From: Crossiella equi | Lineage (GTDB): Bacteria; Actinomycetota; Actinomycetes; Mycobacteriales; Pseudonocardiaceae | Direction: 5' to 3' | Length of the DNA: 64,000 bases | Assembly: GCF_017876755.1 (NCBI RefSeq) | Contig: NZ_JAGIOO010000001.1 | Location: 7,673,786-7,737,785, forward strand | In this document: piece after piece, positions 42,793 to 58,419 of the stretch | Position numbering within the stretch: the stretch's first letter is position 1 | How the letters are laid out: every line of letters starts with the position of its first letter | Notes under the pieces: generated by a model | The model's database searches: none | What the model saw: only the letters and a program-made list of their open reading frames with translations | Told to the model about the DNA's origin: nothing | Translations under genes and position numbers: made by a program

Positions 42793-42999
42793 ATGCGTTG
42801 GGAAGGTCAGCGGGTTGATGCCGAGCAGCCCGCACTGCTGTCGCTGTCGGGGTTCGTGCGATCGGTCCGCACCCCGGGGTTCGCGGGCGTCACCTTCCAC
42901 GAGGTGCGGGCCAAGTCCGTGCTCAACCGCGTGCCCCCGGCCTCGCGCCTGCCGTTCGGGTGGACCGTCAACCCCTACCGGGGGTGTGCGCACGCGTGA
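42793..42999 (+). pseudogene. Radical SAM protein (Rv2578c family), 5' fragment cut by the integrated element
   Basis: 68 residues ending INPYRGCAHA-like (VNPYRGCAHA) followed by TGA. The family begins in this way and continues with ACVYCFARNSHTYLD, which is found 15.4 kb away at 58418. The break is in the CX3CX2C cluster motif, between the first and second cysteines. Joining 42793-42998 to 58420-59269 gives 1056 bp, exactly 352 codons in frame. The fragment cannot bind a cluster and is probably non-functional. Confidence 0.92.
42990..42998. other. attL core of the integrated element
   Basis: GCACGCGTG, shared with 58411-58419. Left of it is radical-SAM coding sequence, right of it element sequence starting AGCGTGCTTCC. 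The symmetric centre of the rebuilt attP places the crossover dinucleotide at TG (42997-42998). Confidence 0.85.
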
Positions 43000-43027
43000 G
43001 CGTGCTTCCTGCTGTTACCTTATCAGT

Positions 43028-44482
43028 ATGACGGCAACTCGCGCGGCGGTGTACGCCCGAATCTCGAAAGACGTTGTGGCCCTAGGGCTTGGCGTGGAGC
43101 GGCAGCGCGATGCCTGTCTGGGCTTGTGTGAGCAGCGTGGCTGGACCGTCAGCGAAAATTTGATCTTCACGGACAACGACGTGTCCGCCTCTGGTGCCCG
43201 CAGCAAGCGCGTCGCCTTCGCGTCACTGCTGGCGCGCGTTGAGGCGGGAGAGGTCGACGTGATCGTGGTGCACCACGTCGACCGGTTGGTGCGGCGCCTC
43301 GACGAGCTGGAGCGAATCATCGAGCTGTGCGAGCGGCAAGGCGTCAAGATCATTACCGTCACTGGTGATCTTGACTTGGCCACCGACGCCGGTCGGCTGA
43401 ACGCGCGGATCCTGGCATCGGTTGCTCGCGCTGAGGTTGAGCGCAAATCGGCGCGTCAGCGCGACGCGAACCGGCAAGCCGCTGCCATGGGAAAAGCTCA
43501 TTCCGCTCGGAGAGCATTTGGCTTCGCCGATGCGAATCATCTGCACCCCGTCGAATCGACCATCGTGGCCCAGATGTACGATCAGTTCAATTCCGGAGTC
43601 TCGCTCGGCGGCTTGGCGCGCTGGCTGAACGAGCAAGGAGTTTCCACCCCGTTGGGCAAGCAATGGAAGTACAACTCGGTTCGTTCGGTTCTGGCGAACC
43701 CACGCAATGCGGGACTCCGGGGTGTCCGTGAGCTTGTCGACACAGCGGTGGGCGGTAGCGGGCGACGGGCGCGTTGGCACACGATCACCGCAGAGTCGGC
43801 GGCTTGGCCGCCGATCGTCCCCCGCGAGGCGTGGGAAGCTGCCATGCGGGTTCTCCAGGATCCCGAGCGTAGGACGAACTACGTGGGCAATCGTCAGCAG
43901 TATCTGCTTTCAGGGCTTGCGATCTGTGCAGCGGACGGGTGCGGCCAGAAGATGGTGACCGGTCGCCGTGACAAAATCCGAACTCTGCGATGCCCCTCAT
44001 TGCGTCATGCGAATCGGCGTGCGGATTACCTTGAACAGTTCGTTGTAGACGTAATCCTGGAGCGCCTGCGCAAGCCCGACGCGATCGACCTGGTGCAGCC
44101 GCAGCCTGGCGGGGTCGACATCGCCGCGCTGCGTGACCGGTCGGCGCTCCTGCGGCGACGCCTGGCCGAGCTGGCGGAGGATTTCGGCGTAGGGGACCTC
44201 ACCCGCGCCGAGTATCGCGCCGCACGCGAGGCGGCCCACGCGAAGCTGGCCGAGCTTGACGCGACCTTGGCCGATCTGGGTCGGGTGGACGTGCTTGCGG
44301 GGTTCGTTGGTGTCGATCAAGATCCCGCTGTCGCTTGGGAGCGGGCAGGCCTGGAGATCCGGCGTGGCGTGATCAACGCGCTCGCCGAGATCAGCATCGG
44401 CCCCGGCCGGGCAGGCCGTCCAGGTCAGGGGCCTGACGCGGTGGTGGGCACGGTCAGTTTTGGGTGGAGGCGTCGTGGCTGA
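43028..44482 (+). CDS. int: Large serine recombinase (integrase of the element)
   Basis: 484 residues from ATG 43028. The resolvase catalytic domain has the nucleophile Ser13 (YARISKD), the conserved arginines in VHHVDRLVRRLDELE, and GDLDLATDAGRLNARIL; a recombinase domain follows (AFGFADANHLHPVESTIV, VRSVLANPRNAGLRGV). The zinc-ribbon region has CAADGCGQ and RCPS, then a coiled coil (residues about 360-420). It lies beside attL, as integrases do, and would integrate attP into the radical-SAM attB; excision needs a directionality factor. No strong ribosome site precedes the ATG. Confidence 0.93.
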   Translation: MTATRAAVYARISKDVVALGLGVERQRDACLGLCEQRGWTVSENLIFTDNDVSASGARSKRVAFASLLARVEAGEVDVIVVHHVDRLVRRLDELERIIELCERQGVKIITVTGDLDLATDAGRLNARILASVARAEVERKSARQRDANRQAAAMGKAHSARRAFGFADANHLHPVESTIVAQMYDQFNSGVSLGGLARWLNEQGVSTPLGKQWKYNSVRSVLANPRNAGLRGVRELVDTAVGGSGRRARWHTITAESAAWPPIVPREAWEAAMRVLQDPERRTNYVGNRQQYLLSGLAICAADGCGQKMVTGRRDKIRTLRCPSLRHANRRADYLEQFVVDVILERLRKPDAIDLVQPQPGGVDIAALRDRSALLRRRLAELAEDFGVGDLTRAEYRAAREAAHAKLAELDATLADLGRVDVLAGFVGVDQDPAVAWERAGLEIRRGVINALAEISIGPGRAGRPGQGPDAVVGTVSFGWRRRG

Positions 44483-44906
44483 GCAAATCGTCGTCGTGTG
44501 CCGTGGTCCGAAAGCCAAGCCGCACAAGCCTTTCAAGTTTCCGTTCGACCGTGACGGCAGCTCATGGACCTCGCTGACGCATGAGGTGTTCGGCGACCCG
44601 GACGGCGGCGCCCGAGCAATCGACAGTGCGCTTCACGCGGGTGTCCACCCGAAGCGGTTCGAAGGGCACCACGTCCGTGTTGATGCTGATGGTCAGCGCC
44701 AGTCACGGGTTCGCGGGGGCGTCCGGATGACCCGGCGCGGCTGGGAGCTGATCTGTGCACGTCACACCCGGGTGGGCGAAGGCATCTTCACATTCCGTGC
44801 CGTGACGCTCTCGCTGGTGCTCGATCAGTTGGCGGCCAACGGCATCGCCGAGATCGACGCGCATGAACTGCTCGATCTGGTGCGGCGGGTCGCGCACCGC
44901 AAGTGA
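44475..44906 (+). CDS. Hypothetical protein downstream of the integrase
   Basis: 143 residues from GTG 44475, with GGTGGAGG (44463-44470) upstream and an 8-bp overlap with the integrase stop. A basic N-terminus (VVCRGPKAKPHKPFKF) and a middle part with KRFEGHHVRVDADGQRQSR. I do not recognise the family. Tight coupling to the integrase makes it a candidate recombination directionality factor, but nothing in the sequence proves this. Confidence 0.65.
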   Translation: MAEQIVVVCRGPKAKPHKPFKFPFDRDGSSWTSLTHEVFGDPDGGARAIDSALHAGVHPKRFEGHHVRVDADGQRQSRVRGGVRMTRRGWELICARHTRVGEGIFTFRAVTLSLVLDQLAANGIAEIDAHELLDLVRRVAHRK

Positions 44907-45035
44907 CGATCGACATGTAGTTTGTTGTCGAGTCGCTTGCGGCTCCGCGTACGCCCGGCGATACGGCGCGGTCACGCTCCCTGCGAGGCAACGATTTCGC
45001 GGTTCGGGCTCTCTTCCGCACGGGAGTAGCCCAAA

Positions 45036-45281
45036 ATGAAGCATTCGCCGGAAGAGCTGTCCGCTCGCGGCAGACTCGCAAGATCCACAGCTATCAACGG
45101 CGCCGATCACCCGCGGACCCATGCCGCGCGCCAGCAGTGGCGGACCGCGCGGTGGCTTGCCGCCGTGACCGCCATCGCGGCCGAGGCACCGCCGTTGGAC
45201 ACCGAGACCCGGGCTCGCGTGCGCAGGCTGCTGGCGCCGGTGGTCGGCAAAGCCGACAGCCGATCGGAGGCCGTGGCATGA
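45036..45281 (+). CDS. Hypothetical 81-residue protein
   Basis: Starts MKHSPEELSARGRLARSTAI; helical, Arg- and Ala-rich, with a basic first half that could bind DNA. GGGAG lies about 12 bp before the ATG. Its stop overlaps the next ATG by 4 bp (ATGA), so it is coupled to the following gene. No family recognised. Confidence 0.6.
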   Translation: MKHSPEELSARGRLARSTAINGADHPRTHAARQQWRTARWLAAVTAIAAEAPPLDTETRARVRRLLAPVVGKADSRSEAVA

Positions 45282-45811
45282 AGATCCACATTGCCCGGCC
45301 GGAGATCGCTGCGATCGCCGACCTCGCCCGCCGCGAACGTCCGCGCGTTCGGCCGCTTGAGGACGTGCTTGCGGACGTTCTCGGCGCGGGCGCGAACTTC
45401 GAGCTGACCGAGGACGGCGCAGTGCTCATCGGCTTTGGTCCTGGACGCGGCGGCGCTCCCCGTGCGGTGGAACCGCCGCGCGAGTCGTCCCGGCTGGTTG
45501 CGCTGACCGCCGAGGCCGTGCGTGCCCACGCCGTCGGATCAGCGCAGCTGCTGGAGCAGCTGGCGATCGCGCCCGATCAGCCCGACTGGGCGGCTGTGGC
45601 CGCCCAGCTGGCCGACCGGGCCCGTGCGCGCGCCGCCGAGCTGGCCGCGCAGGCCGAGGCGGCCGAGCAACGCGAGCGGGCGGCGTGGAGCGGTCAGGCC
45701 GTGCACGCCGACCGGCGTGCGGCCCTGCTCCGCGAGCTGGCCGAGCTGGACAGCCCTGCCGCCACGGCCGAGCCCGACCTCCCACCCCGCCATGGCTGGT
45801 GGTCGCGGTGA
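45278..45811 (+). CDS. Hypothetical Ala-rich coiled-coil protein
   Basis: 177 residues. The N-terminal part (MKIHIARPEIAAIADLARRE) is followed by an ADVLGAGANFELTEDG segment and a long Ala/Arg/Glu helix (residues about 105-165) likely to form a coiled coil. No catalytic motif seen. Overlaps both neighbours by 4 bp, forming a three-gene coupled unit. Confidence 0.6.
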   Translation: MKIHIARPEIAAIADLARRERPRVRPLEDVLADVLGAGANFELTEDGAVLIGFGPGRGGAPRAVEPPRESSRLVALTAEAVRAHAVGSAQLLEQLAIAPDQPDWAAVAAQLADRARARAAELAAQAEAAEQRERAAWSGQAVHADRRAALLRELAELDSPAATAEPDLPPRHGWWSR

Positions 45812-46185
45812 GCACGCCGCGCTGGTGGCCCACGCTGGCGCGCCCGGCGACGGGGCCGCTTGACCGGGATCGCCAGCGCCGCGAGACGCTGGCTGCGGTC
45901 CGGCGGTTGTTCGCGCTGGTGGTCGAGGAGCACGGCGACGTCCGGCTGGTGCCCCGGCCGGAGTTCGCCTCGCTGCCCGGCATGCAGCGCGTCAGCGTGG
46001 TCGCGGGCATGGCGGCCTCCGTGCTCGGCGTGCTCGTCGTCCACCGACTGGGGCGTCCAGCGAGCCCGGAGGCGGTGCGGTGGGCGCTGGGCGAGCTTGA
46101 GCGCGAGGCCGAGAAGCTGCGGCGCGAGGCCGCCGCGCCCCACCATGCTCCGGTACGGGCGCGGCATCTCCGGCTCGTGCGATGA
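45808..46185 (+). CDS. Hypothetical protein with a central membrane-like segment
   Basis: 125 residues from GTG 45808, overlapping the previous stop. VVAGMAASVLGVLVVHRLG (about residues 65-85) is hydrophobic enough for a membrane helix, followed by a basic helix (ALGELEREAEKLRREAAAP). No family recognised. It is the last gene before the AT-rich repeat region. Confidence 0.6.
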   Translation: MSTPRWWPTLARPATGPLDRDRQRRETLAAVRRLFALVVEEHGDVRLVPRPEFASLPGMQRVSVVAGMAASVLGVLVVHRLGRPASPEAVRWALGELEREAEKLRREAAAPHHAPVRARHLRLVR

Positions 46186-46255
46186 ATGCATGTCCGTCGC
46201 GCAAATATGCATGTAAGTAATGCATGTTGACGATGCATTTGTAACGCTTCTGCAT
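46186..46255. repeat. ATGCAT iteron-like repeats in AT-rich DNA
   Basis: ATGCAT occurs at 46186, 46207, 46220 and 46233, plus TGCAT at 46251. Three units (ATGCATGTAAGTA, ATGCATGTTGACG, ATGCATTTGTAAC) follow each other at an exact 13-bp period. The stretch is markedly AT-rich for this genome. Confidence 0.8.
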
Positions 46256-46292
46256 CGTGCTGGTGGTTATTCTCGGCAGTCCGTGCCGCGAT

Positions 46293-46362
46293 ATGCCCCT
46301 GACCTGCTGAAATTTGACTAGCCGAATTCAGTTCGGCTAGTCATTACCGCAGGTCAGGGCAT
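46293..46362. repeat. Nested inverted repeats, candidate origin or single-strand structure
   Basis: Inner arms TGACTAGCCGAA (46315-46326) and TTCGGCTAGTCA (46332-46343) are perfect 12-bp complements; outer arms ATGCCCCTGACCTGC (46293-46307) and GCAGGTCAGGGCAT (46349-46362) match except for one extra C. No T-tract follows. The structure fits a replication or transfer origin better than a terminator. Confidence 0.75.
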
Positions 46363-46425
46363 TATCGCGCTTGTGTCACGTCGCTAAGACCCGTAATTTC
46401 GTACTCGACCGAACGGAGTTCAGTA

Positions 46426-46620
46426 ATGGCTCGTCGATATACCACCGCCGACCCCGATCGAATCTCCGAGCAGCGTCGCAACGCGGTCAGGGCTCGCTGG
46501 GCACGACTCGATTCCGAGCAGCGGCGCGAAGCCACGCGGCCCGCGCGCCAGGCATCAGCAGCTCGCGCTGTCCGGGTTCGGGAGCTGCTCGCCGAGATTG
46601 ACGGCACGTCAGCGGCCTGA
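46426..46620 (+). CDS. Small basic protein, putative DNA-binding
   Basis: 64 residues (MARRYTTADPDRISEQRRNA start), rich in Arg and Ala with a helical middle (ARWARLDSEQRREATRPARQ). GGAG lies 9 bp before the ATG. Size, charge and position beside a repeat region suit an excisionase-like or replication accessory protein; no homology is recognised. Confidence 0.6.
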   Translation: MARRYTTADPDRISEQRRNAVRARWARLDSEQRREATRPARQASAARAVRVRELLAEIDGTSAA

Positions 46621-46629
46621 AAAGCAAAA

Positions 46630-46674
46630 CCCGCCCCCGGGGTCCCGGTGTTACCAGCACCGGGCGGGGGCGGG
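46630..46674 (+). terminator. Long GC hairpin after the small basic gene
   Basis: CCCGCCCCCG (46630-46639) pairs with CGGGGGCGGG (46665-46674) and, inside it, CCCGGTG (46644-46650) pairs with CACCGGG (46658-46664); four unpaired bases on the left. It starts 10 bp after the stop. Confidence 0.75.
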
Positions 46675-46741
46675 CCTGAAAGCGAACGTCGACCAAGAGC
46701 GAACACCTTCGCGTTGAATTCTAGCCGCCGTTAGCGCGGCT

Positions 46742-46772
46742 TTCCAATCTCGCGAAGTGGTTCAGATTGGAA
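46742..46772. promoter_or_regulatory. Inverted repeat just before the primase gene
   Basis: TTCCAATCT (46742-46750) and AGATTGGAA (46764-46772) are perfect 9-bp arms with a 13-bp spacer, ending 8 bp before ATG 46781. It is a likely operator for control of primase expression. Confidence 0.6.
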
Positions 46773-46780
46773 CTACTTCC

Positions 46781-49561
46781 ATGCTAGCGCAAGCCCTTGA
46801 CCAGGACAAACCGCTTCAGGCATACCCCGAAGACCTCGCCGCCTACGTGCACGCCCGCTTCGGTGTGCACGAGCTGGGTGGCCTCCACGTTGGCGTCACC
46901 GCGATCCGCCACGGCGGCCAAGTCGAGAATCGGTCCGTCCCCGCGGACGACATCGATGCGATCATCCGCGCCGTCGCCGCACTCGACGCCGATGAGACCA
47001 CGGCGGGCGTGTTCCTCGCCCAAGCGCTCGCGGACCGGCCGCTCACCAGCGGGCGCTACCGGGCTGTCGATGCGAGGGCACTGACGCACTTGTGGGCCGA
47101 GATCGACTTCGGCAAGCTTGACGCGCCGCCCACCGCGAAGGACGCGATGCGTGTGATCGACGCGATCGGCTTGCAGCCGACGTTGATCAAGAACACCGGC
47201 CATGGCCTGCACGTCGAGTTCGCCTTGGCTGAGCCGTGGCGCCTGGACACCGACGCCGACCGCCGCGAGGCTGCCGACCTGGAGCGCGACCTCGTCCGCA
47301 CGCTGGCCCTGCGCGCCCGCGAGGCGGGCCTGTGGGAGGTGGACCGCGTCGGCGACCTTGCGCGGATCATGCGCGTGGTCGGCACGACGAACCGTAAGGA
47401 CCTGGCCAGCCCCAAGTCGGTCGCCATCCTGCTGCACGAACCGAATCGCGCCTACGAGCCGTCGGAGATCCGCGCCGCGCTGGTTGATCGCTCGTTCCTG
47501 GATGCGGCCGACCAGCGCGGGGGCGTCACGGATGGGCAGCAGCGCGCCATGCTGGCCCGGATCGACCTGCGCCGGGCCTGGTCCGAGGCTCAGCGGGGCG
47601 GGGCGCAGGAGCTGCTGAGCCTGCTAGAGGAGGCGGATCCGAGCAGTCGCCTTCTTGGGCTATGGCGCGAAGCCGCCGCGCCCGGCGTGGATGACTCCAG
47701 GGAAGACCTCAAGCTCGGCAATTCCGCGTTCGCGCTTTTCAGGTCCGCTGGGGAGGACGAGGCCCTGCACAAGGCCGCTCTCGTGATCATGAGCAACCGC
47801 ATCCGCACCAACCGCAAGACCGACAAGGTCGATCCGGCCCGGCGGGTCGATTACCTGGCGCGGACGCTGGCGCGGATCGCCAAGCCGCGCACCGGCTGCG
47901 CGGAGCCGATGCCCCTGGTGGTGTTGCAGGCGAAGGCGGCCACGCTCGCGGAACCTCCGTTCGCGGAGGACACCGGCGAGCGGGAGAGCCCCGCTCTGGC
48001 CGCCCCGGAGACCAGCGAGCCGATCGACTTCAGCCGGTCCGAGCGCTGGGACTACAGCCACGAGGGCAACGCCGCCCGGTTCGTCGCCGTGCACGGCACC
48101 GGCACCGTGGCGTGGGTGCCCGGTCTGAACGTCACCCGCACCTGGCGTGGCAACGTCTGGGCCACCGACACCGGCACCCACCTGCACGCTCTGTGGAGCC
48201 ATGTCACCAAGCTGATGCGCGTGCAGGCTGACGCCGAGCTGAAGGCCGCGCAGGACGCCGTAGCTGTCGATCAGGACGACCAGGATGCCAAGGCCGCCTT
48301 GAAGCGCGCTCAGAAGTTCGACGCCTGGGCCACCAAGAGCCGCATGGGCTCCGACGTGAAGTACACGGTGACGGCCGTGCGCGCCCTGCCCGGCGTCGAG
48401 GTCCCGGCCGGGCTGTGGGATTCGAACCCGCGCTTGCTCAACGTCGGCAATGGCACGCTGGAGATCGACTACGACGGCACGCCAACCCTGCGTGAGCACC
48501 GCGCGGCCGACAGAATCACCCAGCAGTCCGGCACCGCGTACGACCCGGACGCGACGGCTCCTAGCTGGGAAAAGTTCCTCGGCGAAGCCATCCCTGATGC
48601 AGGTGTCCGCCGTGTCTTCCAGGCACTGGCAGGGCTCAGCCTTCTCGGTGACAACGCAGAGCACGTGTTCGGGTTCTTGATCGGCCCCACGCGCTCCGGC
48701 AAGACCGTCGCACTGGAAACGCTGGGCAAGATCCTGGACAGCCCCGAGGACCCCGCCCTTGGCTACAGCGGGGCCTTCGAGCTGTCCGTCCTGCGCCCCA
48801 AGCGCGAGAGCGGCGGCAACCCGCAGCTCGTCCGGCTGCTGGATCGCCGCATGGTGTGGACCGCCGAGACTGCTGACGGGTTGCCGCTCAATGCTGACCA
48901 GCTCAAGCGCTTTAGCGGCGGTGACCGGATCGCCGTGCGCGACAACTACGCCCGTTCTGGAAGTGTTCAAGACCGGGCGCCGAAGTTTGTGCCCTGGGCC
49001 GCCGCGAACAAGCCGCCGCAGATCGAGGGGGCGGACGCGGCACTGGCGGAGCGGATCATCGCGATCCCGTTCCCGAACACCCGGCCCGCCGACCGGCGAG
49101 AGACACGGCTGGCCGAACGGATCGCCCGCGAGGAAAGCTCCGGGGTCCTGAACTGGGCGCTGGCCGGACTCAAGGACGTCATCGCGAACCCGCAGATCCT
49201 GCGCTCCGAACTGCCCAAGCCATGCAGGCGCGCCCGGGACGAAATGCTCGCTGAGGTCGACCCGGTCCGGCGCTGGCTGGCCGAGGCCACCGAGCCCTGC
49301 GACTGCGAGAACGGCCACTGCTGCGTCACCAACCCAGCAGCTTGGGGGGCGTTCAGGGCCGCGATGGACGACCAGCGTGAACGGGGAATCACGCAGAACT
49401 CGTTCAGCCGAGGCCTCAAGGACGCAGGTCACCCGGCCACGGTGGTCAAGATCGACGGGCGGACGGTCAAGGTCCGGCGCGGGCTGCGTCTCACCGACGA
49501 GTACCGCGCGGAGCTCGCGCGACGGACGGCCGAGGATGAACGCGGAGCGGTCCGCATCTGA
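46781..49561 (+). CDS. AEP primase-SF3 helicase replication protein (P4/D5 type)
   Basis: 926 residues from ATG 46781; a GTG at 46757 lies inside the inverted repeat and is less likely. The N-terminal archaeo-eukaryotic primase domain has WAEIDFGK (acidic motif, about 105-112), the histidine motif TGHGLHVEF (139-147) and LARIMRVVGTTNRK (193-206). A middle linker has an Asp/Lys-rich helix. The C-terminal helicase has Walker A GPTRSGKT (about 635-642), VWTAETADG as Walker B region and AANKPPQI as motif C. It should prime and unwind at the origin of the element after excision. Confidence 0.9.
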   Translation: MLAQALDQDKPLQAYPEDLAAYVHARFGVHELGGLHVGVTAIRHGGQVENRSVPADDIDAIIRAVAALDADETTAGVFLAQALADRPLTSGRYRAVDARALTHLWAEIDFGKLDAPPTAKDAMRVIDAIGLQPTLIKNTGHGLHVEFALAEPWRLDTDADRREAADLERDLVRTLALRAREAGLWEVDRVGDLARIMRVVGTTNRKDLASPKSVAILLHEPNRAYEPSEIRAALVDRSFLDAADQRGGVTDGQQRAMLARIDLRRAWSEAQRGGAQELLSLLEEADPSSRLLGLWREAAAPGVDDSREDLKLGNSAFALFRSAGEDEALHKAALVIMSNRIRTNRKTDKVDPARRVDYLARTLARIAKPRTGCAEPMPLVVLQAKAATLAEPPFAEDTGERESPALAAPETSEPIDFSRSERWDYSHEGNAARFVAVHGTGTVAWVPGLNVTRTWRGNVWATDTGTHLHALWSHVTKLMRVQADAELKAAQDAVAVDQDDQDAKAALKRAQKFDAWATKSRMGSDVKYTVTAVRALPGVEVPAGLWDSNPRLLNVGNGTLEIDYDGTPTLREHRAADRITQQSGTAYDPDATAPSWEKFLGEAIPDAGVRRVFQALAGLSLLGDNAEHVFGFLIGPTRSGKTVALETLGKILDSPEDPALGYSGAFELSVLRPKRESGGNPQLVRLLDRRMVWTAETADGLPLNADQLKRFSGGDRIAVRDNYARSGSVQDRAPKFVPWAAANKPPQIEGADAALAERIIAIPFPNTRPADRRETRLAERIAREESSGVLNWALAGLKDVIANPQILRSELPKPCRRARDEMLAEVDPVRRWLAEATEPCDCENGHCCVTNPAAWGAFRAAMDDQRERGITQNSFSRGLKDAGHPATVVKIDGRTVKVRRGLRLTDEYRAELARRTAEDERGAVRI

Positions 49562-49580
49562 TCTCCCGCGCGACCTGACA

Positions 49581-49612: not shown

Positions 49613-49626
49613 CTGGCGTCCGGGGC

Positions 49627-50019: not shown

Positions 50020-50589
50020 GTGAACACCCCATCGCGCGCACGCGGAACGGACTCCGCGCCCGGCGGCAACACCCCATCGCGCGCGCGACCCGGCGAGGTC
50101 GGTCCGGATGAGCGCGCCCGGCTGCGGGCCAGCTTCGGCCGCGCGTTGTGGGGCGCTCGTGCGCAGGCCGGGCTGAGTCAGGCCGCGCTGTGCGCGGCGG
50201 CCGGGGTTGGTCCGCGCCAGGTTGCCAAGTTGGAGGCCGGGGCCGTGCGGCCCTCGGATGCGATGTGCCGCCGCTTGGCGGCGGTGCTGCGCGCCAGCTG
50301 CGACGACGTGACCCGGGCCGAACTGGCACTGGAGCTGATGGCGGCGGCGGGCGGCTCCCTGCGAATCTGGCGCCGCCGCCGTCCGCTGCGGCGCCGGGTC
50401 CAGCTTGCCGAGGCCGCAGCCGCGGAGCGCTTGCGGAGCCGTGCGGAGGCTGCGGCCGAGCGAGAGCGGGCCGAGGCGCTGGAGCTGTGGACACTGCTGA
50501 ACGAGGTGCCGCCGCCCGCGCCGTCGCGACAAAACCCCACCTTGCTGCCCTCAGGGCGCAGGGTCCAGATTCGTCGAAGGAGTGCGTGA
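50020..50589 (+). CDS. XRE-type HTH regulator of the element
   Basis: 189 residues from GTG 50020. The HTH spans about residues 33-85 ([40 protein letters not shown]). A basic, helical C-terminal part ([20 protein letters not shown]) may mediate oligomerisation. The first 25 codons contain a near-duplicate of a 16-bp segment (ACACCCCATCGCGCGC), so the true start may be further in. It is next to the GGTTACG array and may bind it. Confidence 0.75.
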
Positions 50590-50825: not shown

Positions 50826-50872
50826 GCGCGAGGGAGGCGTGATGTGATCGTGACAACCGATCAGCTGTGCCG

Positions 50873-50914
50873 CATTCTGGAGTCGGATAACTTTGCTTAT
50901 CCGACTCCAGAATG
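50873..50914. repeat. 18-6-18 perfect inverted repeat before the tyrosine recombinase gene
   Basis: CATTCTGGAGTCGGATAA (50873-50890), spacer CTTTGC, then the exact reverse complement (50897-50914), ending 11 bp before the ATG at 50926. The geometry, inverted arms around a 6-bp asymmetric centre, is that of a tyrosine-recombinase core site; it could also be a transcript hairpin. Confidence 0.85.
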
Positions 50915-50925
50915 GGGCTCTCGAC

Positions 50926-51927
50926 ATGACCGACACCGCCGCCCTCGTCACGGCCGGGGGTCACGTCCCGGTGCACACGGACACCGACACGATCATGTCT
51001 GAGGCCACCCGTCGGCGAATCGTCGACGGCATTGCCGCGAACACCGTCAAGGCGTACACCCGCCAGTGGACTGCGTTCACCGACTGGTGCGCCGGGCAGG
51101 GCCGCACACCCCTGCCCGCGACCGCCGAGACGCTGGCCGAGTACGTCGGCCATCTGGCCGACGCGGGCAGGGGGCCGTCCACGGTCCAGCAGGCCATGGC
51201 GGCGGTCTCCGTGCGGCATGACGCCGCCGAGCTGCCCAAGCCCAACACCAAGGGCGCGCTGCTGGTGCTCCGGTCGCTGCGACGCGAACGTGCCGACGCC
51301 GGGCAGCGCACCAAGCAGGCCCCGCCCCTGACGGTGGAAATGCTGCGGAAACTGATCGACGCCACCGACACGGACAGCCCCACGGGCAAGCGGGACCGGC
51401 TGCTGCTGGTGCTGGGCCTGGTGATGATGTCGCGCCGCTCGGAACTGTCAGCGCTGTGGATCGAGGACGTCACCGAGACGGAGAACGGCTTGGAGGTTTT
51501 GGTGCGCAGGAGCAAGACCGACCAGGACGCAATGGGCGAGGTCGTGCCCGTGCCACGCGGCTCGCACCCGCACTCCGACCCGGTGCGGCTGCTGCGAGCA
51601 TGGCTCGCGGTGCTCGCGAAGAAGGAAATCACCACCGGGCCGCTGCTGCGGTCGATCGACCGGCACGGCAAGATCGGGACCGGACAGCTCACCACCGACT
51701 CGATCAGCCGGATCGTGCAGCGCCTTGCCGTCCGGGCCGGGTTGCCCGACGCCCAGCGATACACCGCGCACAGCTTGCGGGCTGGCGGCGCGACGGCCGC
51801 GTACAAGGCGGGTGCGCCCGTGTCCGCGATCAAGAAGCAGGGGCGCTGGAAGTCCGACGTGGTCAACGAGTACATCCGCGTTACGGATAGGTGGCGGGAC
51901 CACCCGATGACGGATATCGGGCTTTAG
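50926..51927 (+). CDS. Tyrosine recombinase (XerC/D-like)
   Basis: 333 residues. N-terminal SAM-like core-binding domain (NTVKAYTRQWTAFTDWCAGQ, residues 35-54) and catalytic domain with Arg171 (MSRRSELSAL), His282-x-x-Arg285 (AHSLRAGGATAAYKAG), a GRW motif and the nucleophile Tyr316 (EYIRVTDRW). As the element already has a serine integrase, this enzyme may resolve multimers or act on the adjacent inverted repeat. It could also be a remnant of a second integration system. Confidence 0.9.
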   Translation: MTDTAALVTAGGHVPVHTDTDTIMSEATRRRIVDGIAANTVKAYTRQWTAFTDWCAGQGRTPLPATAETLAEYVGHLADAGRGPSTVQQAMAAVSVRHDAAELPKPNTKGALLVLRSLRRERADAGQRTKQAPPLTVEMLRKLIDATDTDSPTGKRDRLLLVLGLVMMSRRSELSALWIEDVTETENGLEVLVRRSKTDQDAMGEVVPVPRGSHPHSDPVRLLRAWLAVLAKKEITTGPLLRSIDRHGKIGTGQLTTDSISRIVQRLAVRAGLPDAQRYTAHSLRAGGATAAYKAGAPVSAIKKQGRWKSDVVNEYIRVTDRWRDHPMTDIGL

Positions 51928-51988
51928 TCGTCGGAGTCGCTCGGTTATCGGCCCTGTACGGTCCTCCGCTACAGACAGGGAGGTGCCA

Positions 51989-52627
51989 GTGGAGAAGGCC
52001 GCCATGCCGCTCTACCTGAGGATCACACGCTGGATTGCGATCGGAGTGCTCATGGTCGCTGAACTGATCCTGATCGTCGGCCCTCTGCTGCGTTCACCGC
52101 TCAGCTGGTTGACCAGCCAGAGCGCCGATTGGTGGGGAGCGGCCGGGCAGTGGGTGGGAGGCATCGGTTCGTGCGCGGCGGTCATCGTGGCCCTTTCCCT
52201 TGCCCGCCGTGACGGCAAGAGGGCTGAGGAGGAGCGCCGGGACCGTGAGATGGCGCAGGCACGGTTGGTGTTCATCGAGACCTTCCAGTCCGACCCCACG
52301 TCGATCCTGGTCGTCAACCGCAGTAAGGAGCCCATTCTGGGTGTCGAACTGCTCAACGTGACGTCGGGCGACCCATCGTTCTGTGGTTGGGAGCTGGCCC
52401 CGATGGAGGGGGAGCTTGACCACTTTCCCGTCGTCCCTGCCAGCGGCAACGGGTTCTTCAGAATGTCCATGGAGATCGGCGTTGGAGTCGACGGAGTCAA
52501 AGATGTGCACGACCTCCGGTGGGAGTACACGATCGGGTTCGTGGACGCCAACGGCCTATCCTGGACACGGACCAACAACGGCTCGCCTGAGCGGGACCTG
52601 TCCGGCCGGATCCCGCGACTCGTGTAG
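51989..52627 (+). CDS. Two-helix membrane protein of unknown function
   Basis: 212 residues from GTG 51989, chosen because GGGAGG (51978-51983) lies 5 bp upstream. Membrane helices at about residues 12-32 and 48-68 (WWGAAGQWVGGIGSCAAVIV), a charged helix, then a beta-rich domain (ILVVNRSKEPILGVELLNV; IGFVDANGLSWTRTNNG). No family recognised. It lies in the cargo zone between recombinase and transfer genes, where defence or entry-exclusion genes are often found. Confidence 0.65.
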   Translation: MEKAAMPLYLRITRWIAIGVLMVAELILIVGPLLRSPLSWLTSQSADWWGAAGQWVGGIGSCAAVIVALSLARRDGKRAEEERRDREMAQARLVFIETFQSDPTSILVVNRSKEPILGVELLNVTSGDPSFCGWELAPMEGELDHFPVVPASGNGFFRMSMEIGVGVDGVKDVHDLRWEYTIGFVDANGLSWTRTNNGSPERDLSGRIPRLV

Positions 52628-52632
52628 GCGGC

Positions 52633-52833: not shown

Positions 52834-53042
52834 GCGCGGGAGTCCTCGGCGTCCGCGTCAAGCGTGGCCTGGTCGGTGAGAGCCAGCGCGTAGTGCACAG
52901 CGTCGTCGTACCTGACGGCGCGCCCGTGATCGGCACCTTGACAACCGTCTGCGGCGCGATGTTCGCGGCCAACAATGTGGACGTCGTTGGCCGGGTCGGG
53001 ACGCCGTGCATGCCCTGCGTGATTCGTCTGGCTACCGGCTGA
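52830..53042 (+). CDS. Hypothetical 70-residue protein
   Basis: GTG start overlapping the upstream small frame. Composition is beta-rich (VLGVRVKRGLVGESQRVVHS) with a C-terminal CMPC motif and one more cysteine, possibly a small metal-binding or redox protein. No family recognised. Confidence 0.5.
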   Translation: MSAGVLGVRVKRGLVGESQRVVHSVVVPDGAPVIGTLTTVCGAMFAANNVDVVGRVGTPCMPCVIRLATG

Positions 53043-53204
53043 GCCCAGGGGCTGGGGCGCGGCCTGTCAGCGAGTGCCCGGCCGTCGCACAGGGCGGTAC
53101 TCAACGCGGTCAGACTTGGTGAGGGCAGCTCGCTGCGGCCCCACACGCCGGGGCAGGGTCTGCTGCGACGTATGTGCGGCGAACGGTGACATTGTGTCCG
53201 CGCG

Positions 53205-53675
53205 TCAGGGCCGTTCGACCTCGTACATGGCCGCCAGGATGGTCTCATCACCAAGTTTGACTTTGGACAACGTCCCTATCACGCAGCCGATCCGCTCGCT
53301 TGTGTTCGGGGCGCTCGTCACGCACACCTTCACCCACTTCTCGATGGCCTCCGACACCTCTGCAGCGGCCTTCTCAACCGTCGCGTAACGACCACCGAGA
53401 GCGTCTGCTTGATCTCCGATCTCCTCCACCAACTTCTGGAAGTCTAGGATGGCACGCAGACAGCCAGGCTCGAATGTGGCCTCTGCGGGGCAGGCACCGC
53501 GCGGGGACACCGCAGGCAACCGCTTCTCCCACAAAGGAAGCAGTGCGGTTGGTGTGGCGGTCGTGGTGGTCGTCGGCGATGCGGAGATCGACGAGTTCGG
53601 CGCGGCCGTTGGCTCGCCCCCGGAACAAGCGGTGGTGAGCAGGACTGCGGCGACGAGGGCAGGTAAGGCACGCAT
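53205..53675 (-). CDS. Predicted lipoprotein
   Basis: 156 residues. Signal peptide MRALPALVAAVLLTTACSGG with lipobox LTTAC (Cys17), a Thr/Ser-rich linker (ASPTTTTTATPT), then a domain with four cysteines (GACPAEA, PGCLRAI, KVCVTS, IGCVIG) that probably form two disulfides outside the cell. It is the only gene of the cargo zone on the minus strand, transcribed on its own. A surface lipoprotein in a conjugative element could act in entry exclusion; this is speculation. Confidence 0.8.
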   Translation of the reverse strand: MRALPALVAAVLLTTACSGGEPTAAPNSSISASPTTTTTATPTALLPLWEKRLPAVSPRGACPAEATFEPGCLRAILDFQKLVEEIGDQADALGGRYATVEKAAAEVSEAIEKWVKVCVTSAPNTSERIGCVIGTLSKVKLGDETILAAMYEVERP

Positions 53676-54004
53676 GCGGGTTCAGTCGCACAAATCGGTG
53701 TCCGCGTTACGGACGAGATGAGATTGTCCCAGTGCCGTGTCTCAGGGCAGCCTCGTGCAGCGTTGCGAGGGTGGCCCCGCGGACTTGTCAGGGCTTCATG
53801 AAAGGTCTGTCGAAACTATTGATCCTCGGCGTCAGGCCTTGCGCCTCAACTTGTATGTGGCGCGCTCGACCGTGGACGCTGAGCGCCAACTTGGTACCGG
53901 GATCGTCGCAATCGAGTAACTCGGTACGTATCCAGATAACGACCACTTAGACGTAAACGAGATATCTCCTACCTGCACATTTCCCGCGCATGAAGGAGCT
54001 TCCG
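53676..54004. other. Gene-poor, AT-richer stretch of about 330 bp
   Basis: It should contain the promoters of the leftward lipoprotein gene and the rightward gene at 54005. A 60-codon frame (53737-53919) lacks coding bias and is not called. Base composition is less GC-rich than the flanking host genes, which may reflect recent acquisition. Confidence 0.5.
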
Positions 54005-54256
54005 ATGCCCACTCCCAAGGTCCTGACCATCACCATGAAGTTCGAGATCGGTGACCGGAAGATCCACGCCGGGCGGGTGAAAGCCGCCTCCGACGCAGCG
54101 GTCGCGGCTGCGACCGCTGAGGTCCAGAAGAACCTCCTGGAGGGCTGCGTCGAGAACGTCACGGCGTCGACCACCTGGGCCTACCACTGGGCTGAGTTCG
54201 GGAGCACCATCCCGCTCACTGGCACCGATGATCCTGAACCTGACTCTGAGGTGTAG
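54005..54256 (+). CDS. Hypothetical 83-residue protein
   Basis: ATG 54005 with AAGGAG (53994-53999) 5 bp upstream; an ATG at 53990 would put that site inside the gene. Beta strand VLTITMKFEIGDRKIHAGRV, a helix rich in Ala, then GCVENVTASTTWAYHWAEFG and an acidic tail. No family recognised. Confidence 0.65.
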   Translation: MPTPKVLTITMKFEIGDRKIHAGRVKAASDAAVAAATAEVQKNLLEGCVENVTASTTWAYHWAEFGSTIPLTGTDDPEPDSEV

Positions 54257-54264
54257 GCAGAGAA

Positions 54265-54307
54265 GGTGCTGTCCTCCGCCAGCGAGTCGACGACGGAGGA
54301 CAGCACC
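54265..54307. terminator. Bidirectional hairpin terminator
   Basis: GGTGCTGTCCTCCG (54265-54278) and CGGAGGACAGCACC (54294-54307) are perfect 14-bp arms with a 15-nt loop, between the rightward gene at 54005 and the leftward small gene at 54313. Confidence 0.75.
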
Positions 54308-54312
54308 ATCAA

Positions 54313-54465
54313 TCAGCGTGTACATGTAGGCGGTACGGGCGGTGACGCCATACGCGGCGATGCGGCGGACAAGCCAAGAATGAAGGCGGCCAAGCACGCC
54401 AACGCGGCAACGCCGAGCCAGCGGCCGGGGCGGAACTCGCGTGAGAAGTTGACGGTCGGGGACAT
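54313..54465 (-). CDS. Small membrane protein (50 residues)
   Basis: ATG at 54465 with AAGGAG 4 bp upstream on the minus strand. MSPTVNFSREFRPGRW, then a membrane helix (LGVAALACLAAFILGLSAAS) and a short Pro-rich tail. It lies after traB on the same strand. Small membrane proteins (Spd type) near traB are typical of actinomycete conjugation; the assignment is by context only. Confidence 0.55.
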   Translation of the reverse strand: MSPTVNFSREFRPGRWLGVAALACLAAFILGLSAASPRMASPPVPPTCTR

Positions 54466-54502
54466 GCGGCTCCTTGGTCGAAACGGGGGCGGAACGGGCC
54501 TG

Positions 54503-54651
54503 TGTGCCGACCTCCAGGGCGGAGGTCGGCACAGCCGGAACGACCCGCCATCGAGACGTACGACGCAGCTCAGAGCCCGTTCCGGCCCTCTGGGGCGGGT
54601 TGGAACGAGCTGTTCCAACCCGCCCGTGGGCGTTCCGGCCCCGTTCCGGCC
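54503..54651. repeat. Repeats and hairpins beside the traB 3' end, candidate clt locus
   Basis: GTTCCGGCC occurs at 54579, 54632 and 54643, with the inverted form GCCGGAAC at 54534. Two perfect hairpins are interleaved: TGTGCCGACCTCC (54503-54515)/GGAGGTCGGCACA (54521-54533) and GGGCGGGTTGGAAC (54593-54606)/GTTCCAACCCGCCC (54612-54625). In Streptomyces plasmids the TraB-binding clt repeats lie near traB. Confidence 0.65.
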
Positions 54652-54653
54652 TC

Positions 54654-56798
54654 TCACCGCTCCAGCCACGGGCCCAGGGCGGCCCGGACGGCGTCCACGT
54701 CGACCACGCTGACGGGGTTCGGATGGCCCGCCACGCGCCGCTTCCCTGCTGACGGAACTCCAGCCGCCCGGAGCGCTTCGCCCAGTCCCTTGCCGTCCCA
54801 GCCGATGCGGGCGGCCAGCTCGCTGGTGGGCAGGTGCCCGGTCTCGCCTTCGGCCAGAACCTCGGCCAGCAGCCCCAGAACCTCCGGCGCGTCGTCGGTG
54901 ACGATCTCAGCGTCCACGGCCATGGGGAGGGCGGACACCACGTCGGCCAGCCGGGCGGCGGTCGCGGCGTCCAGCGCGGGCAGCTCGTTCCCGGCTGCGT
55001 CCCCGCTGAGGGTTCCGGCCTGCTCCCGCAGGGCCCGGCCACGCGTGCACGCGGCCCGGACCTGGGCGATGTGCAGTAGGTGGGTCCGCACGGTCACCGC
55101 GTCCCCGGCTGACAGCTCCGTCTCACCGTCCGCGCCCAGAAGCAAGCCCACGCCCTTGTGGCTGGTCAGCAGACGTGAGGCGTCCATCCCGGCCTTGTAG
55201 GTGCCCGCCCCGAGGATCGTCTCCGATGCCTGCCAGGTCATCGTCTTCAGCGCGAAGCGGGTACCGAGCTGACCCCGCAGCCCGTCCGGGATCACCCGGG
55301 CGTCCGGCTTCTGGGTAGCCAGCACGAGCACGTACCCGGCGGCCGGGCCGGTCTTGGCGATGTAGGTCAGCAACTCGCAGATGCGGGCGCCGACCTTCTT
55401 GCCCTTGAGCTCGGCCTCTTCCAGCGGAACGTCCAGGCCCAAGAAGTTCTGCACCTCGTCGATGCCGATCACGGTCAACGGCATGCCGAAGGCCGGTTCG
55501 CGGGTGATCTCGGGCGTCACCTTCGACTCCGGGCACACCTCGTCGTCCATCTCGGCCAGGCGGTCGAAGCGGTCGGCGACGTCCGCGGCGCACTCCTCCA
55601 GCACCGTGATCAACCTTCTGGCATCGCTCTCCCGCGAGCCCCGGATGAAGCGGTGGGCGACCTCCTCGAACGGACGGAAGTCCTTGCCGCCCTTGCCATC
55701 GGCCACGATCAGCCGCACGTGCGGGTCCAAGGCGGCGGCGGTGAGCGGCAGCCGCATGACGAAGGTCTTGCCCTGACGTGGAATCGCACCGATCAGCAGC
55801 GAAGTCCACACCACGGGCAGGTTCAGGGTCGTCCCCCGGGCTGTGGTCCCGAACGGCACCGGGCGCCAGAGATCCCAGGCAGGTGCATCGGCGAGCGGGC
55901 TGGGGACCGGGGCGGCGGCGTAGGGATCGGCGTCGCCCACCCAGAACGCCAGGCGTCCGGCGTGCCCGTCGTCGCCCCGGACGCGCTCCACGATCAAGCG
56001 GACCTCGTCCACCGCGAGTGCGGAGGCCAGAGCCTCCCGCTTGGCGATGATGTCCGATGCCTTGCGCGATGGCGGCAGGTCGATCGTCAGGGCCCAGCCG
56101 GTGCCGTCGTGGCGCGGGGCCTTCACCAGCAACAGGCGCTCGTCCTTGCCGATGAGCTTCGCGTCCCGGAAGGCCACCACCAGGTGATCACCGTCCATGA
56201 GCCACGCCAGCTTGCGTGACCCCAGATGGCTGCTCCGGCCGCCCGAGCCGTCCTTGCGGCGTCCGGCCAGGGCGAAGCCCGCCGAGACCGCGCCGCCAGC
56301 GACCAGCAGCGGCGCCGACCCGGCGGCCATGTCGGTGATGAGCGCGCCGAGGCTGACCGTGACGAGCCCGCCCAGGGACAGCAGCCCCCGGCGGCGTCGG
56401 ACGACGGCGATCTCGGACCAGCGGTCGGCGAGCTTGTCCGCCGTCTTGGCCGCCGCGTAGTAGTCGCTGACGCGCACCCAATGCCACCAGGCCCGCGCGG
56501 AAACAGCCAAGCCGCGCCCGACGGCGGCCGGATAGCGCAGCGGGACCAGGGCGGCGCGTACCGCCAGCTCGGCCCCGGCCTGCTTCGCCGTCTCGGAGGT
56601 CTGCCACCGCGCAGGCAGCTTGGCTACCGCCGACTCCGCCAGTCGCCGGGCCCGCGAGCGGCGGTACTCCTCCTCGGAGATCAGCTCGGCGTCCAGGACC
56701 GGACCGGCGGGTTCGACCTCGGTGCCGGGTGGAATCGGGAACGGCACGACCTTTGCCCCCTCGGGTTCGGCCTCCTCCGTGTGCTGCGGCGCGCTCAT
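54654..56798 (-). CDS. traB: TraB/FtsK-SpoIIIE-type DNA translocase
   Basis: 714 residues. One or two membrane segments at about residues 138-178 (LLSLGGLVTVSLGALITDMA), then the motor domain with Walker A GAIPRQGKT (337-345), Walker B LTVIGIDEVQ (441-450), VLATQKPDARVIPDGLRGQL and RFALKT. A C-terminal winged-helix-like domain (HLPTSELAARIGWDGKGLGE, about 640-690) should read the DNA recognition repeats. Single hexameric TraB pumps move double-stranded DNA between mycelial cells in actinomycetes. Confidence 0.92.
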   Translation of the reverse strand: MSAPQHTEEAEPEGAKVVPFPIPPGTEVEPAGPVLDAELISEEEYRRSRARRLAESAVAKLPARWQTSETAKQAGAELAVRAALVPLRYPAAVGRGLAVSARAWWHWVRVSDYYAAAKTADKLADRWSEIAVVRRRRGLLSLGGLVTVSLGALITDMAAGSAPLLVAGGAVSAGFALAGRRKDGSGGRSSHLGSRKLAWLMDGDHLVVAFRDAKLIGKDERLLLVKAPRHDGTGWALTIDLPPSRKASDIIAKREALASALAVDEVRLIVERVRGDDGHAGRLAFWVGDADPYAAAPVPSPLADAPAWDLWRPVPFGTTARGTTLNLPVVWTSLLIGAIPRQGKTFVMRLPLTAAALDPHVRLIVADGKGGKDFRPFEEVAHRFIRGSRESDARRLITVLEECAADVADRFDRLAEMDDEVCPESKVTPEITREPAFGMPLTVIGIDEVQNFLGLDVPLEEAELKGKKVGARICELLTYIAKTGPAAGYVLVLATQKPDARVIPDGLRGQLGTRFALKTMTWQASETILGAGTYKAGMDASRLLTSHKGVGLLLGADGETELSAGDAVTVRTHLLHIAQVRAACTRGRALREQAGTLSGDAAGNELPALDAATAARLADVVSALPMAVDAEIVTDDAPEVLGLLAEVLAEGETGHLPTSELAARIGWDGKGLGEALRAAGVPSAGKRRVAGHPNPVSVVDVDAVRAALGPWLER

Positions 56799-57802
56799 CG
56801 GGCACTCCGGCGTAGCGCGTCGCGGACCTCGCGGGCGGCGTTGGTGCCGCAGCCCAGGACCTCGCGGATCCGGGTCGCGGACGGGTCGGCGGGCAGTTCC
56901 CCGGCGGCGATCAGGTGCCGGGCACGTTCGACGAGTAGGGCGGTAGATCCGCCAGTAGCCTCACCGGCTCCGGGAACCTTGCCGAGGACGTTTCCGCTGT
57001 ACTCCGGGCCAGTAGAGCTTGAGTAGGGCTGAGCGGTAGGGGCAGCCGACAGACTGTGGTCCAGGTCCGCGAACGCACTCCAGATGATCGGCAGCACGGC
57101 CACCGCGCCGACTGCGACCAGCGGGCCGATCGCGTGCGCGAGGAGCTGCATCGGATCGAACCGGTCGGCCTGCCAAGGCAGGTACGGCCAGACGTTCAGC
57201 GTCAGCGTCACCGCCAGCGCGCCGTACTCCACGACGGTGAGGTGACGGTGGCGCAGCGTGCGGCCCCTGGTCGCCAGGAAGGCTTTTGCGGCGACCACCA
57301 CGAGCAGCACCGCCGAGATCACCGGCTCCACCGCCCACGCGCCCCACCACGCGGCCGTGTACTCGGTTACGTCCAGGGTGAGCGTGTGGTGCACGCCTGT
57401 CGTGGACCAGCCCAGCGCTCCCACGAGCGCGGACAAGGCCACGATCGTCAGCGTCCGGCGTACCCGCGCGGCCTGCCACGCTCGTGCGGCCGGGTCCTGG
57501 GCGAGTGCGTGCAACTTGGCTGCCTCGACCGCGCGCTTGCGCGAGCGGCGCACCTGGTCGGTGTCGACGAGCAGCGGCGCCGGGTCGGCCTGCATCCCAA
57601 GCAGGGCGTGCGACTCGGCGACCTCGGCCCGCAAGTCCCGCACCCGGCGCGTCTGCACCGGGGCCGCGATCTCGTCCGGCTCCGGCGCCTGGTCGGCGGT
57701 GGACGCAGGAGCCTGCGACGCGACGAAGTCCTCCACATCGGCCACCGCGCGCTCCAGCTCTTCCGGGCTCGGCTCGGGCATCGGGGGGATCGCCGTGCTC
57801 AT
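56795..57802 (-). CDS. DUF2637 membrane protein (SpdB-like)
   Basis: 335 residues: a charged N-terminal half, four predicted helices at about residues 115-230 (LTIVALSALVGALGWSTTG; ISAVLLVVVAAKAFLA; LTLNVWPYL; AVGAVAVLPIIWSAFA) matching DUF2637, and a C-terminal winged-helix-like tail (RARHLIAAGELPADPSATRI). DUF2637 proteins accompany traB in AICEs and are implicated in spread within mycelium. It overlaps traB by 4 bp. Confidence 0.85.
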   Translation of the reverse strand: MSTAIPPMPEPSPEELERAVADVEDFVASQAPASTADQAPEPDEIAAPVQTRRVRDLRAEVAESHALLGMQADPAPLLVDTDQVRRSRKRAVEAAKLHALAQDPAARAWQAARVRRTLTIVALSALVGALGWSTTGVHHTLTLDVTEYTAAWWGAWAVEPVISAVLLVVVAAKAFLATRGRTLRHRHLTVVEYGALAVTLTLNVWPYLPWQADRFDPMQLLAHAIGPLVAVGAVAVLPIIWSAFADLDHSLSAAPTAQPYSSSTGPEYSGNVLGKVPGAGEATGGSTALLVERARHLIAAGELPADPSATRIREVLGCGTNAAREVRDALRRSAR

Positions 57803-58125
57803 CGCTGGGCCTCCTCGGCCTCGATCCGGCGGGCCCTGGCAACAGCTCGGCCCAGCAGGTGCGCCAGCGCTTCAGCGGCGGCTACGGGGATGCCACCGAC
57901 CTCGGTGCGGCGGTGGCCGTCGGCGCAGTGGGCGCGCACGACCACGTGCACCGGTGTGGGCACCTTGGTGCCTTCGGCGCCGTGGTAGTGGATCTGTTCC
58001 ACGGTCACGGCGAGATCGTCAGCGCCGTCGGCGGTCAGCTCCACCACGCCGACCTCGGCGACGTGGACGTCGCGACCGGAGAACTCGAACAGCTCGTCGG
58101 CCCACGGTGCGGGCTGCCGGGTCAT
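57799..58125 (-). CDS. Hypothetical protein of the transfer operon
   Basis: 108 residues: beta-rich first two thirds (VAEVGVVELTADGADDLAVT; PTPVHVVVRAHC) and a C-terminal helix (AEALAHLLGRAVARARRIEA). Overlaps both neighbours by 4 bp. No family recognised; likely a cytosolic partner in transfer. Confidence 0.75.
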   Translation of the reverse strand: MTRQPAPWADELFEFSGRDVHVAEVGVVELTADGADDLAVTVEQIHYHGAEGTKVPTPVHVVVRAHCADGHRRTEVGGIPVAAAEALAHLLGRAVARARRIEAEEAQR

Positions 58126-58337
58126 CGCCCACCCTCCCGCCGGTCGGCGCGGATCGCGGCGGCCCGCCCGAGCCGGGCGCCTGCCTCACCGGCGAGCGCC
58201 GCGATGATCGTGATGGCGATGACCGCGACGGCCGGGAGTGGCCAGACCGCGCAGGCGGCTGCGGCCACGCTGGCCAAGGCGAGTACCGCGAGGCGCCGCG
58301 AGAAGCGGGCGAGCGCGGTGGCAAGATTGCTGGTCAC
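58122..58337 (-). CDS. Small membrane protein, first gene of the transfer operon
   Basis: 71 residues: basic N-terminus (ARFSRRLAVLALA), a long hydrophobic hairpin (residues about 18-50) and a basic tail. It overlaps the next gene and is 73 bp from attR, so the operon is read inward from the right end of the element. Size and topology fit Spd-type spread proteins. Confidence 0.7.
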   Translation of the reverse strand: MTSNLATALARFSRRLAVLALASVAAAACAVWPLPAVAVIAITIIAALAGEAGARLGRAAAIRADRREGGR

Positions 58338-58359
58338 GGTGGGGCTTCCTCCCGCCGAG

Positions 58360-58391
58360 GCCCCGATCAGCGGTTGAGCGCTGGTCGGGGC
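58360..58391. promoter_or_regulatory. Inverted repeat in front of the transfer operon, near attR
   Basis: GCCCCGATCAGCG (58360-58372) and CGCTGGTCGGGGC (58379-58391) are complementary apart from one G-T pair, 6-nt spacer. It lies 22 bp upstream of the first transfer gene and 20 bp from attR; it may be an operator or a directionality-factor site. Confidence 0.55.
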
Positions 58392-58410
58392 GATCCGGTT
58401 ATTGGGGGGA

Positions 58411-58419
58411 GCACGCGTG
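58411..58419. other. attR core of the integrated element
   Basis: GCACGCGTG, identical to 42990-42998. Left of it is element DNA ending TTATTGGGGGGA, right of it the host gene continuing TGTGTACTGC. Confidence 0.85.

Follow-up and report, generated by a model that had tools for sequence, protein, structure and literature searches.

Insertion of a 15,421-bp element in the cysteine motif of an Rv2578c-family radical S-adenosylmethionine gene of Crossiella equi

The Streptomyces phage Samy is reported to encode a serine integrase whose attB lies inside an Rv2578c-family radical S-adenosylmethionine (radical-SAM) gene that is inactivated in the native host (PMC12924846), and its core, TCGGGTGTGTCG (reverse complement), is also given in PMC11302927. 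phiJoe and the SCO2603 elements are described as sharing one attB in a radical-SAM gene (PMC5311408); phiOZJ and phiWTR are named alongside in PMC12924846. Among the actinomycete integrative and conjugative elements (AICEs) surveyed in PMC3218068, 19 of 144 rely on a serine integrase. Here we analyse a stretch of 64,000 bases from Crossiella equi (G000:C1:7673786-7737785), referred to hereafter as the window, in which an Rv2578c-family radical-SAM gene is split by a 15,421-bp element, measured from crossover to crossover. The source genome is one contig of 9,440,186 bases and was compared with a family set of 390 Pseudonocardiaceae genomes. Coordinates are those of the window; G, L and C numbers are our labels for genomes, loci and contigs.

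The split gene and its boundaries

The N-terminal half of the gene (42793..42998, plus strand) begins with ATG at 42793, runs for 68 codons to the alanine before the second cysteine, adds the bases TG and terminates at a TGA at 42997-42999. The C-terminal half (58418..59269, plus strand) begins at the TGT codon of the second cysteine and continues with no internal stop through the stop codon ending at 59269. The motif CX3CX2C (GCAHA|CVYC) is therefore divided at the second cysteine codon. Between them the halves cover NF038135 (positions 1-75 and 71-317) and are its sole matches in a profile search of the source genome; their scores, 92.2 and 423.1 bits, each fall below the whole-protein cut-off of 430 bits.

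We accept the insertion as real because of comparison within the genus and not because of repeats at its ends. Left-flank similarity by blastn stops exactly at 42998 in all three same-genus loci (G185, G187 and G188), and right-flank similarity restarts at 58424 in G185 and at 58411 in the other two. The gene is intact in each, which means that the same genus holds the empty site; a fourth same-genus genome, G186, gave one match (positions 30-317) with the motif uninterrupted. The placement of an element inside the cysteine triad, proposed in an earlier sequence-only reading of the window, is thus borne out by alignments that break at 42998. The same reading held that the host halves rejoin to 1056 bp, and the coordinates agree (206 + 850), matching the orthologues of G185 and G187 (1053 nt plus stop); that of G188 measures 1059. 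Among the genomes followed up, no relative was seen with the same split and no element.

A 9-bp core, GCACGCGTG, is present on the plus strand in attL (42990..42998) and in attR (58411..58419). It had been offered as bounding about 15.4 kb, and both the repeat and the distance stand. As evidence in its own right the bare repeat was rejected: the window holds 3 matches on both strands, against 3.54 expected by shuffling. There is no tRNA in the 64-kb window, hence no tRNA target.

The crossover itself is supported as TG, the first two bases of the TGT codon for the second cysteine, at 42997-42998 in attL and 58418-58419 in attR. The inferred attP has a dyad centred on this TG at 14/22 positions, with other tested centres at 9 or fewer (p 0.00055 by single-base shuffles, 8 centres allowed). 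With 18-base arms the dyad is 11/18 (p 0.0068), and over 24 positions, the scale used for the crossovers below, it is 15/24 with the next centre at 9, a score reached at the TG centre in about 1 in 5000 single-base shuffles. Both this placement and the proposal that integration supplies its own stop agree with the sequence-only reading, as the element's base A, directly after TG, completes TGA in attL.

The fragments are 88-90% (N-half) and 82-83% (C-half) identical to the same-genus orthologues, with pairwise dN/dS of 0.065-0.077 and 0.23-0.27, respectively, compared to 0.12-0.21 among the intact orthologues for the C-half. These values point to a host gene under purifying selection whose fragments are without decay. 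Undecayed fragments would fit a recent insertion or repeated excision alike, and dN/dS cannot separate these. The gene seems dispensable because 44 of the 390 family genomes, some of them incomplete, have no Rv2578c-family match at E 1e-12. Such dispensability bears on the idea of a programmed, skin-like element, in which excision at some life stage restores the gene and the split acts as a host switch. Exact boundaries would restore a frame of 1056 bp, as long as two of the same-genus orthologues, and both halves still resemble constrained coding sequence; but the matches listed include no relative whose gene houses this element, three same-genus genomes are uninterrupted and the gene appears to be one that a host can lack. 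We consider a programmed switch very improbable.

Gene content, related elements and the probable route of integration

The element opens with a large serine integrase of 484 aa (43028..44482, plus strand), which starts 29 bp past the crossover and matches PF00239 (Resolvase N-terminal, 2.6e-29), PF07508 (Recombinase, 2.2e-15), phrog_95 and serine integrase and resolvase chains in the PDB. Further along the plus strand are two open reading frames (ORFs) without a Pfam family, a small one at 44460..44906, whose 42% relative adjoins the integrase in sister locus G242, and an 81-aa one at 45036..45281 with relatives in G242 (57%) and G057 (48%). They are followed on the same strand by a P4-type DNA primase/helicase, a probable replication protein (46757..49561; PF08706; TIGR01613 at 112.3 bits, cut-off 108.7; phrog_1156), an XRE-type helix-turn-helix regulator (50020..50589; PF01381, PF13560), a second recombinase, of the tyrosine type (50893..51927; PF00589; relatives of 37-38% in sister loci G078 and G242), and an ORF without a family match (51983..52627). 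Sister loci G078 and G242, which have the tyrosine recombinase relatives, also have a serine integrase. The minus strand carries another ORF without a family match (53205..53675) and a run of overlapping ORFs that terminates in a 714-aa FtsK/TraB-like DNA translocase, the candidate transfer protein (54654..56798). The first of this putative operon is a small ORF at 58122..58337 and the second another at 57799..58125, neither with a family match; the third (56795..57802) is conserved beside the translocase and has only chance-level Pfam matches.

The translocase matched phrog_1358 (FtsK/SpoIIIE-like) at 92 bits, and a profile of 11 of its relatives matched FtsK (1.4e-9) and a DNA translocase coupling protein (6.1e-5) in the PDB. 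PF01580 (FtsK/SpoIIIE-type Tra) had no match in the window protein and was matched at E 0.01 or better by 3 of the 11 relatives. Its sequence GAIPRQGKT we take to be a Walker A-like motif. No type IV secretion system or relaxase family was found among the element ORFs scanned, and the search for defence genes gave weak matches only, the strongest being the translocase to part of SspH (29 bits).

Relatives of the integrase were present at E 1e-40 in 45 of the 390 family genomes, and translocase matches at E 1e-60 in 196, the source genome counted. Seven sister loci were compared in gene content. G078 and G242 have the integrase, the tyrosine recombinase and the translocase in the same order and directions as the window; in G057 the integrase and translocase are placed as in the window and the regulator and primase are reversed. 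The translocase partner ORF is 69-75% identical in four of the seven. A search by peptide patterns among genome contigs and viral contigs confirmed no integrase relative. Among annotated records the integrase matched 208 from phages and 16 from plasmids, all below 60% identity, and the best-scoring were phages.

The targets of these relatives differ. The nearest integrases found in the family, those of G190 and G193, are 52-53% identical to the window's in one comparison and 54-55% in another, and directly follow a ComEC-type gene broken off just after VPHHGS (L067, L068), presumably a conserved motif of that gene; in G190 the match of this gene to ComEC_Rec2 extends as far as position 611 of the 663 in the profile. 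The G078 integrase follows a fragment of a YifB-type ATPase and that of G057 a fragment of a TadA-type ATPase ending at GGTGSGKT (L327), which we take to be its P-loop. The ComEC, YifB and TadA cases are read from one gene fragment each in a small, hand-picked set, and no clear target gene was found at the integrase loci of G242 and G182. So integrase and target would appear to vary within this kind of element, with three of the four closely viewed targets (radical SAM, ComEC and TadA) broken at a conserved motif.

The boundaries, the empty sites in the same genus, the gene content and the attP dyad were all observed directly, and we hold it very likely that they mark an integrative element, AICE-like and about 15.4 kb long, that entered the gene by means of its own large serine integrase. 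This enzyme would recombine attP, with its dyad on TG, with an attB formed by the bases that encode the radical-SAM cysteine motif, the cut falling at the TG of the second cysteine codon. On the attL side the N-terminal fragment would end at once with TGA, and the other half would start at the second cysteine codon. Loss of function is expected because the N-half is without two of the three cluster cysteines and the C-half without the first; neither could hold a 4Fe-4S cluster, and for as long as the element stays there the host should be without the enzyme. Presumably it was this integrase that performed the integration; the element could excise with the help of a directionality factor, and the FtsK-like protein would move double-stranded DNA between cells.

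An integrase and flanking att sites are present, as AICE membership requires, and the element is probably best called AICE-like. We prefer this term to AICE because the replication markers used in PMC3218068 were not found and transfer is only predicted. The word conjugative, used in the sequence-only reading, would likewise be an inference from the FtsK-like translocase and the P4-type primase.

Several observations weigh against this account. The 9-bp repeat by itself occurs no more often than chance predicts, the dyad of the inferred attB reaches a weak 11/24 that another centre equals, and the dN/dS of the C-half lies slightly above the range of the intact orthologues (significance not computed). 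Of the 30 integrase loci listed, with flanks of up to 1.5 kb on each side, only those of the window and G318 adjoin an Rv2578c half. The window translocase has no Pfam hit; the AICE replication markers RepAM (PF12307) and Prim-Pol (PF09250) were not found, the primase giving only D5_N in Pfam, with the RepSA profile outside the scan. No directionality factor or excisionase was identified among the element ORFs, and the element also encodes a tyrosine recombinase.

That last enzyme might itself have done the integration, since tyrosine recombinases are given as the usual AICE integrases in PMC3218068. The gene at 50893-51927 is separated from attL by about 8 kb and from attR by 6.5 kb, however, while attP is a dyad around a 2-bp centre and the serine integrase abuts attL, and we regard a role for the tyrosine enzyme as extremely unlikely. 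The missing excisionase, along with several ORFs without a family, would suit a dead remnant no longer able to excise. Against this, the integrase, primase and translocase frames are open and contain their domains, both att sites are present and the host halves are undecayed; a dead remnant is unlikely, although it deserves some weight. A prophage or phage satellite in place of a transfer element would account for the phage families matched by the integrase, primase and FtsK-like protein and for the phages that head the integrase matches. But no structural phage family was found among the 10 element proteins scanned with PHROGs (six smaller ORFs lay outside the scan), and the FtsK-like gene is conserved with its overlapping partner in sister loci. 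A phage origin is accordingly an improbable alternative to an AICE-like element.

Just upstream of the split gene lies an IS481-type transposase (PF13683, PF13011; 41676-42695, minus strand), and the region from about 37.6 to 42.75 kb of the window has no blastn match in the three same-genus loci.

Other insertions in the cysteine triad

Split genes were surveyed in 390, 397 and 246 genomes, in sets that overlap, and the counts hold among the matches listed; low-scoring or split cases were searched again (29, then 11). One other element was found at the exact second-cysteine site, in the Saccharopolyspora genome G349 (L110 2523-3617 and 3649-3909; L109 356 onward). Its N-half and C-half are broken at the same TG and lie on two contigs; the halves are also on separate contigs in G088, G043 and G318, described below, and in these four genomes we assume a single event each. 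Compared with the G354 orthologue, the host halves of G349 show 96% and 90% identity. Its attP dyad is 17/24 at TG, with the next centre at 8, and the attP arms differ from the window's. The attL and attR of G349 have only TG in common; the crossover there, as in G220 (below), is fixed by sequence alone because the two junctions share nothing but this dinucleotide.

A complete Rv2578c gene of 364 codons begins at the 42nd base past the G349 crossover, inside attL. Its identity is 72-78% to the intact congeneric genes that were compared and 82% to one in G363. The simplest reading is that this gene belongs to the element and is a spare for the one broken by the insertion. The complete gene may instead be a chance neighbour, as the element's central part is missing from the assembly and no integrase has been tied to the element. 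Two serine recombinases elsewhere in G349 (C17 and C18) showed no tie to the element, whose att arms were not seen near either. By eye, the contig ends beside the element carry apparent insertion-sequence genes. In G363 (L116), a complete Rv2578c gene at 1738-2835 is accompanied, about 3 kb away, by a decayed C-terminal remnant of another copy (about 5905-6579), possibly an older gene replacement.

The motif is also occupied by an intein. Among the 80 named Rv2578c relatives, which are the best 80 of 571 and not a random sample, CX3CX2C could be read in 75; it is uninterrupted in 27 and holds an intein in 48. The first intein residue follows the tyrosine before the third cysteine in all 48 (46 scored as intein-like and 2 as 'other' with the same start). 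The 5 unreadable relatives include L152 and L155, each the C-half of a split gene. The intein lies 9 bp from the second-cysteine crossover and displaces the outer right arm of attB. In 121 distinct sites, the right arm agrees with the window's at 18.6/22 positions in the 60 intact sites and at 13.4/22 in the 61 that bear the intein; the TG is invariant in this set by construction, since the motif used to pick sites demands the cysteines, and is not evidence. The altered right arm may exclude the window's integrase. The sequence-only reading had argued that an attB in the most conserved motif would guarantee a target in many hosts. That claim of many hosts is weakened: the motif could be read in 75 of the 80 named relatives, but an intein interrupts attB in 48 of the 80, the surveys turned up one other element at this exact site, and the nearest integrases found follow ComEC.

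In five genomes (G220, G222, G088, G043 and G318; loci L100, L101/L102, L103/L104, L105/L106 and L069/L107), the gene contains a whole intein and breaks off at the junction of intein and host. The bases shared by the two ends number 2 to 11, the TG of the third cysteine codon among them, and the other half starts at that codon. Four of the five elements have a serine recombinase domain in their first 2 kb; the G088 contig ends about 0.5 kb inside. The clearest case is G220, on a single contig with 13.8 kb between crossovers, whose attP dyad is 16/24 at TG with the next centre at 11 and whose intein fragment is backed by Pfam and NCBIfam. In G222 and G043 the dyad is weak, with 11/24 at TG and an equal score at another centre; TG is unsupported in G318 (9/24, against 11 at a different centre) and in G088 (5/24, against 10 at a different centre). 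The G318 C-half contains an internal TGA. Elsewhere in the gene, a different element in G795 (L249, about 2600-12600) causes a split at the motif GTNTDPYQ and has a serine recombinase at its right end.

We lean, by a small measure, towards viewing the cysteine triad as a shared and contested landing site, at which some integrases use the TG of the second cysteine, the intein before the third cysteine removes that attB, other integrases use the TG of the third cysteine in an intein/host attB that exists only where the intein has invaded, and at least one second-cysteine element brings a divergent copy of the gene.

In G193 (L108, 3662 onward) there is an N-half whose second cysteine is glycine and whose intein frame is broken; no C-half was matched in that genome. 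Further low-scoring or broken-up Rv2578c genes occur in G032, G036, G075, G076, G191, G200, G305, G306, G314, G315, G368, G428, G486, G488, G558, G623, G624, G720 and G839.

Comparison with known systems

In the open-licence literature we found no description of the cysteine-triad site, its reuse in G349, the overlap with the intein site or the intein/host junctions, and titles and abstract openings there held nothing relevant, either on inteins of this gene family or on an attB built from intein DNA. PMC7261884, retrieved for attB and radical SAM, is irrelevant, as in the passages concerned attB either names a gene or belongs to a cloning primer. The locus would provide new att pairs, whose crossover dinucleotides are predicted, within a gene family that already serves actinobacterial integration vectors, and the reach of an attB in a conserved motif would depend on intein occupancy. 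If the intein and host do form an attB together, one mobile element would be creating the target of another; an element that brings its own replacement for the gene it disrupts would illustrate a way to tolerate a costly target.

The target gene family is not new because Samy, as described in PMC12924846, already uses an Rv2578c-family gene. Samy resembles the window element in its serine integrase and gene family and differs in being a phage and in its site, about 120-130 bp upstream of the window's. This distance follows from the position of the Samy core, which matches at 10-11 of 12 bases, 118 nt before the first cysteine codon, in all 8 loci in which the motif was located (17 scanned); these loci come from presumed Streptomyces genomes, the S. 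ambofaciens gene itself not being included. phiJoe and the SCO2603 elements (PMC5311408) are likewise a serine-integrase phage and mobile elements with a radical-SAM target. Unlike the window's, that target is a B12-binding radical-SAM gene (SCO2606-like) entered 74 bp from its end, with its function possibly kept. The intein-containing Rv2578c family of NCBIfam, NF038136, shares insertion in the same cysteine motif, but there the insertion is an in-frame, self-splicing intein directly before the third cysteine, 9 bp from the crossover. Serine-integrase AICEs such as Faln2929 resemble the window element in their FtsK-type transfer protein and in their insertion in protein-coding genes, whereas the AICEs described in PMC3218068 have other targets and rely on RepSA, RepAM or Prim-Pol in place of the P4-type primase found here.

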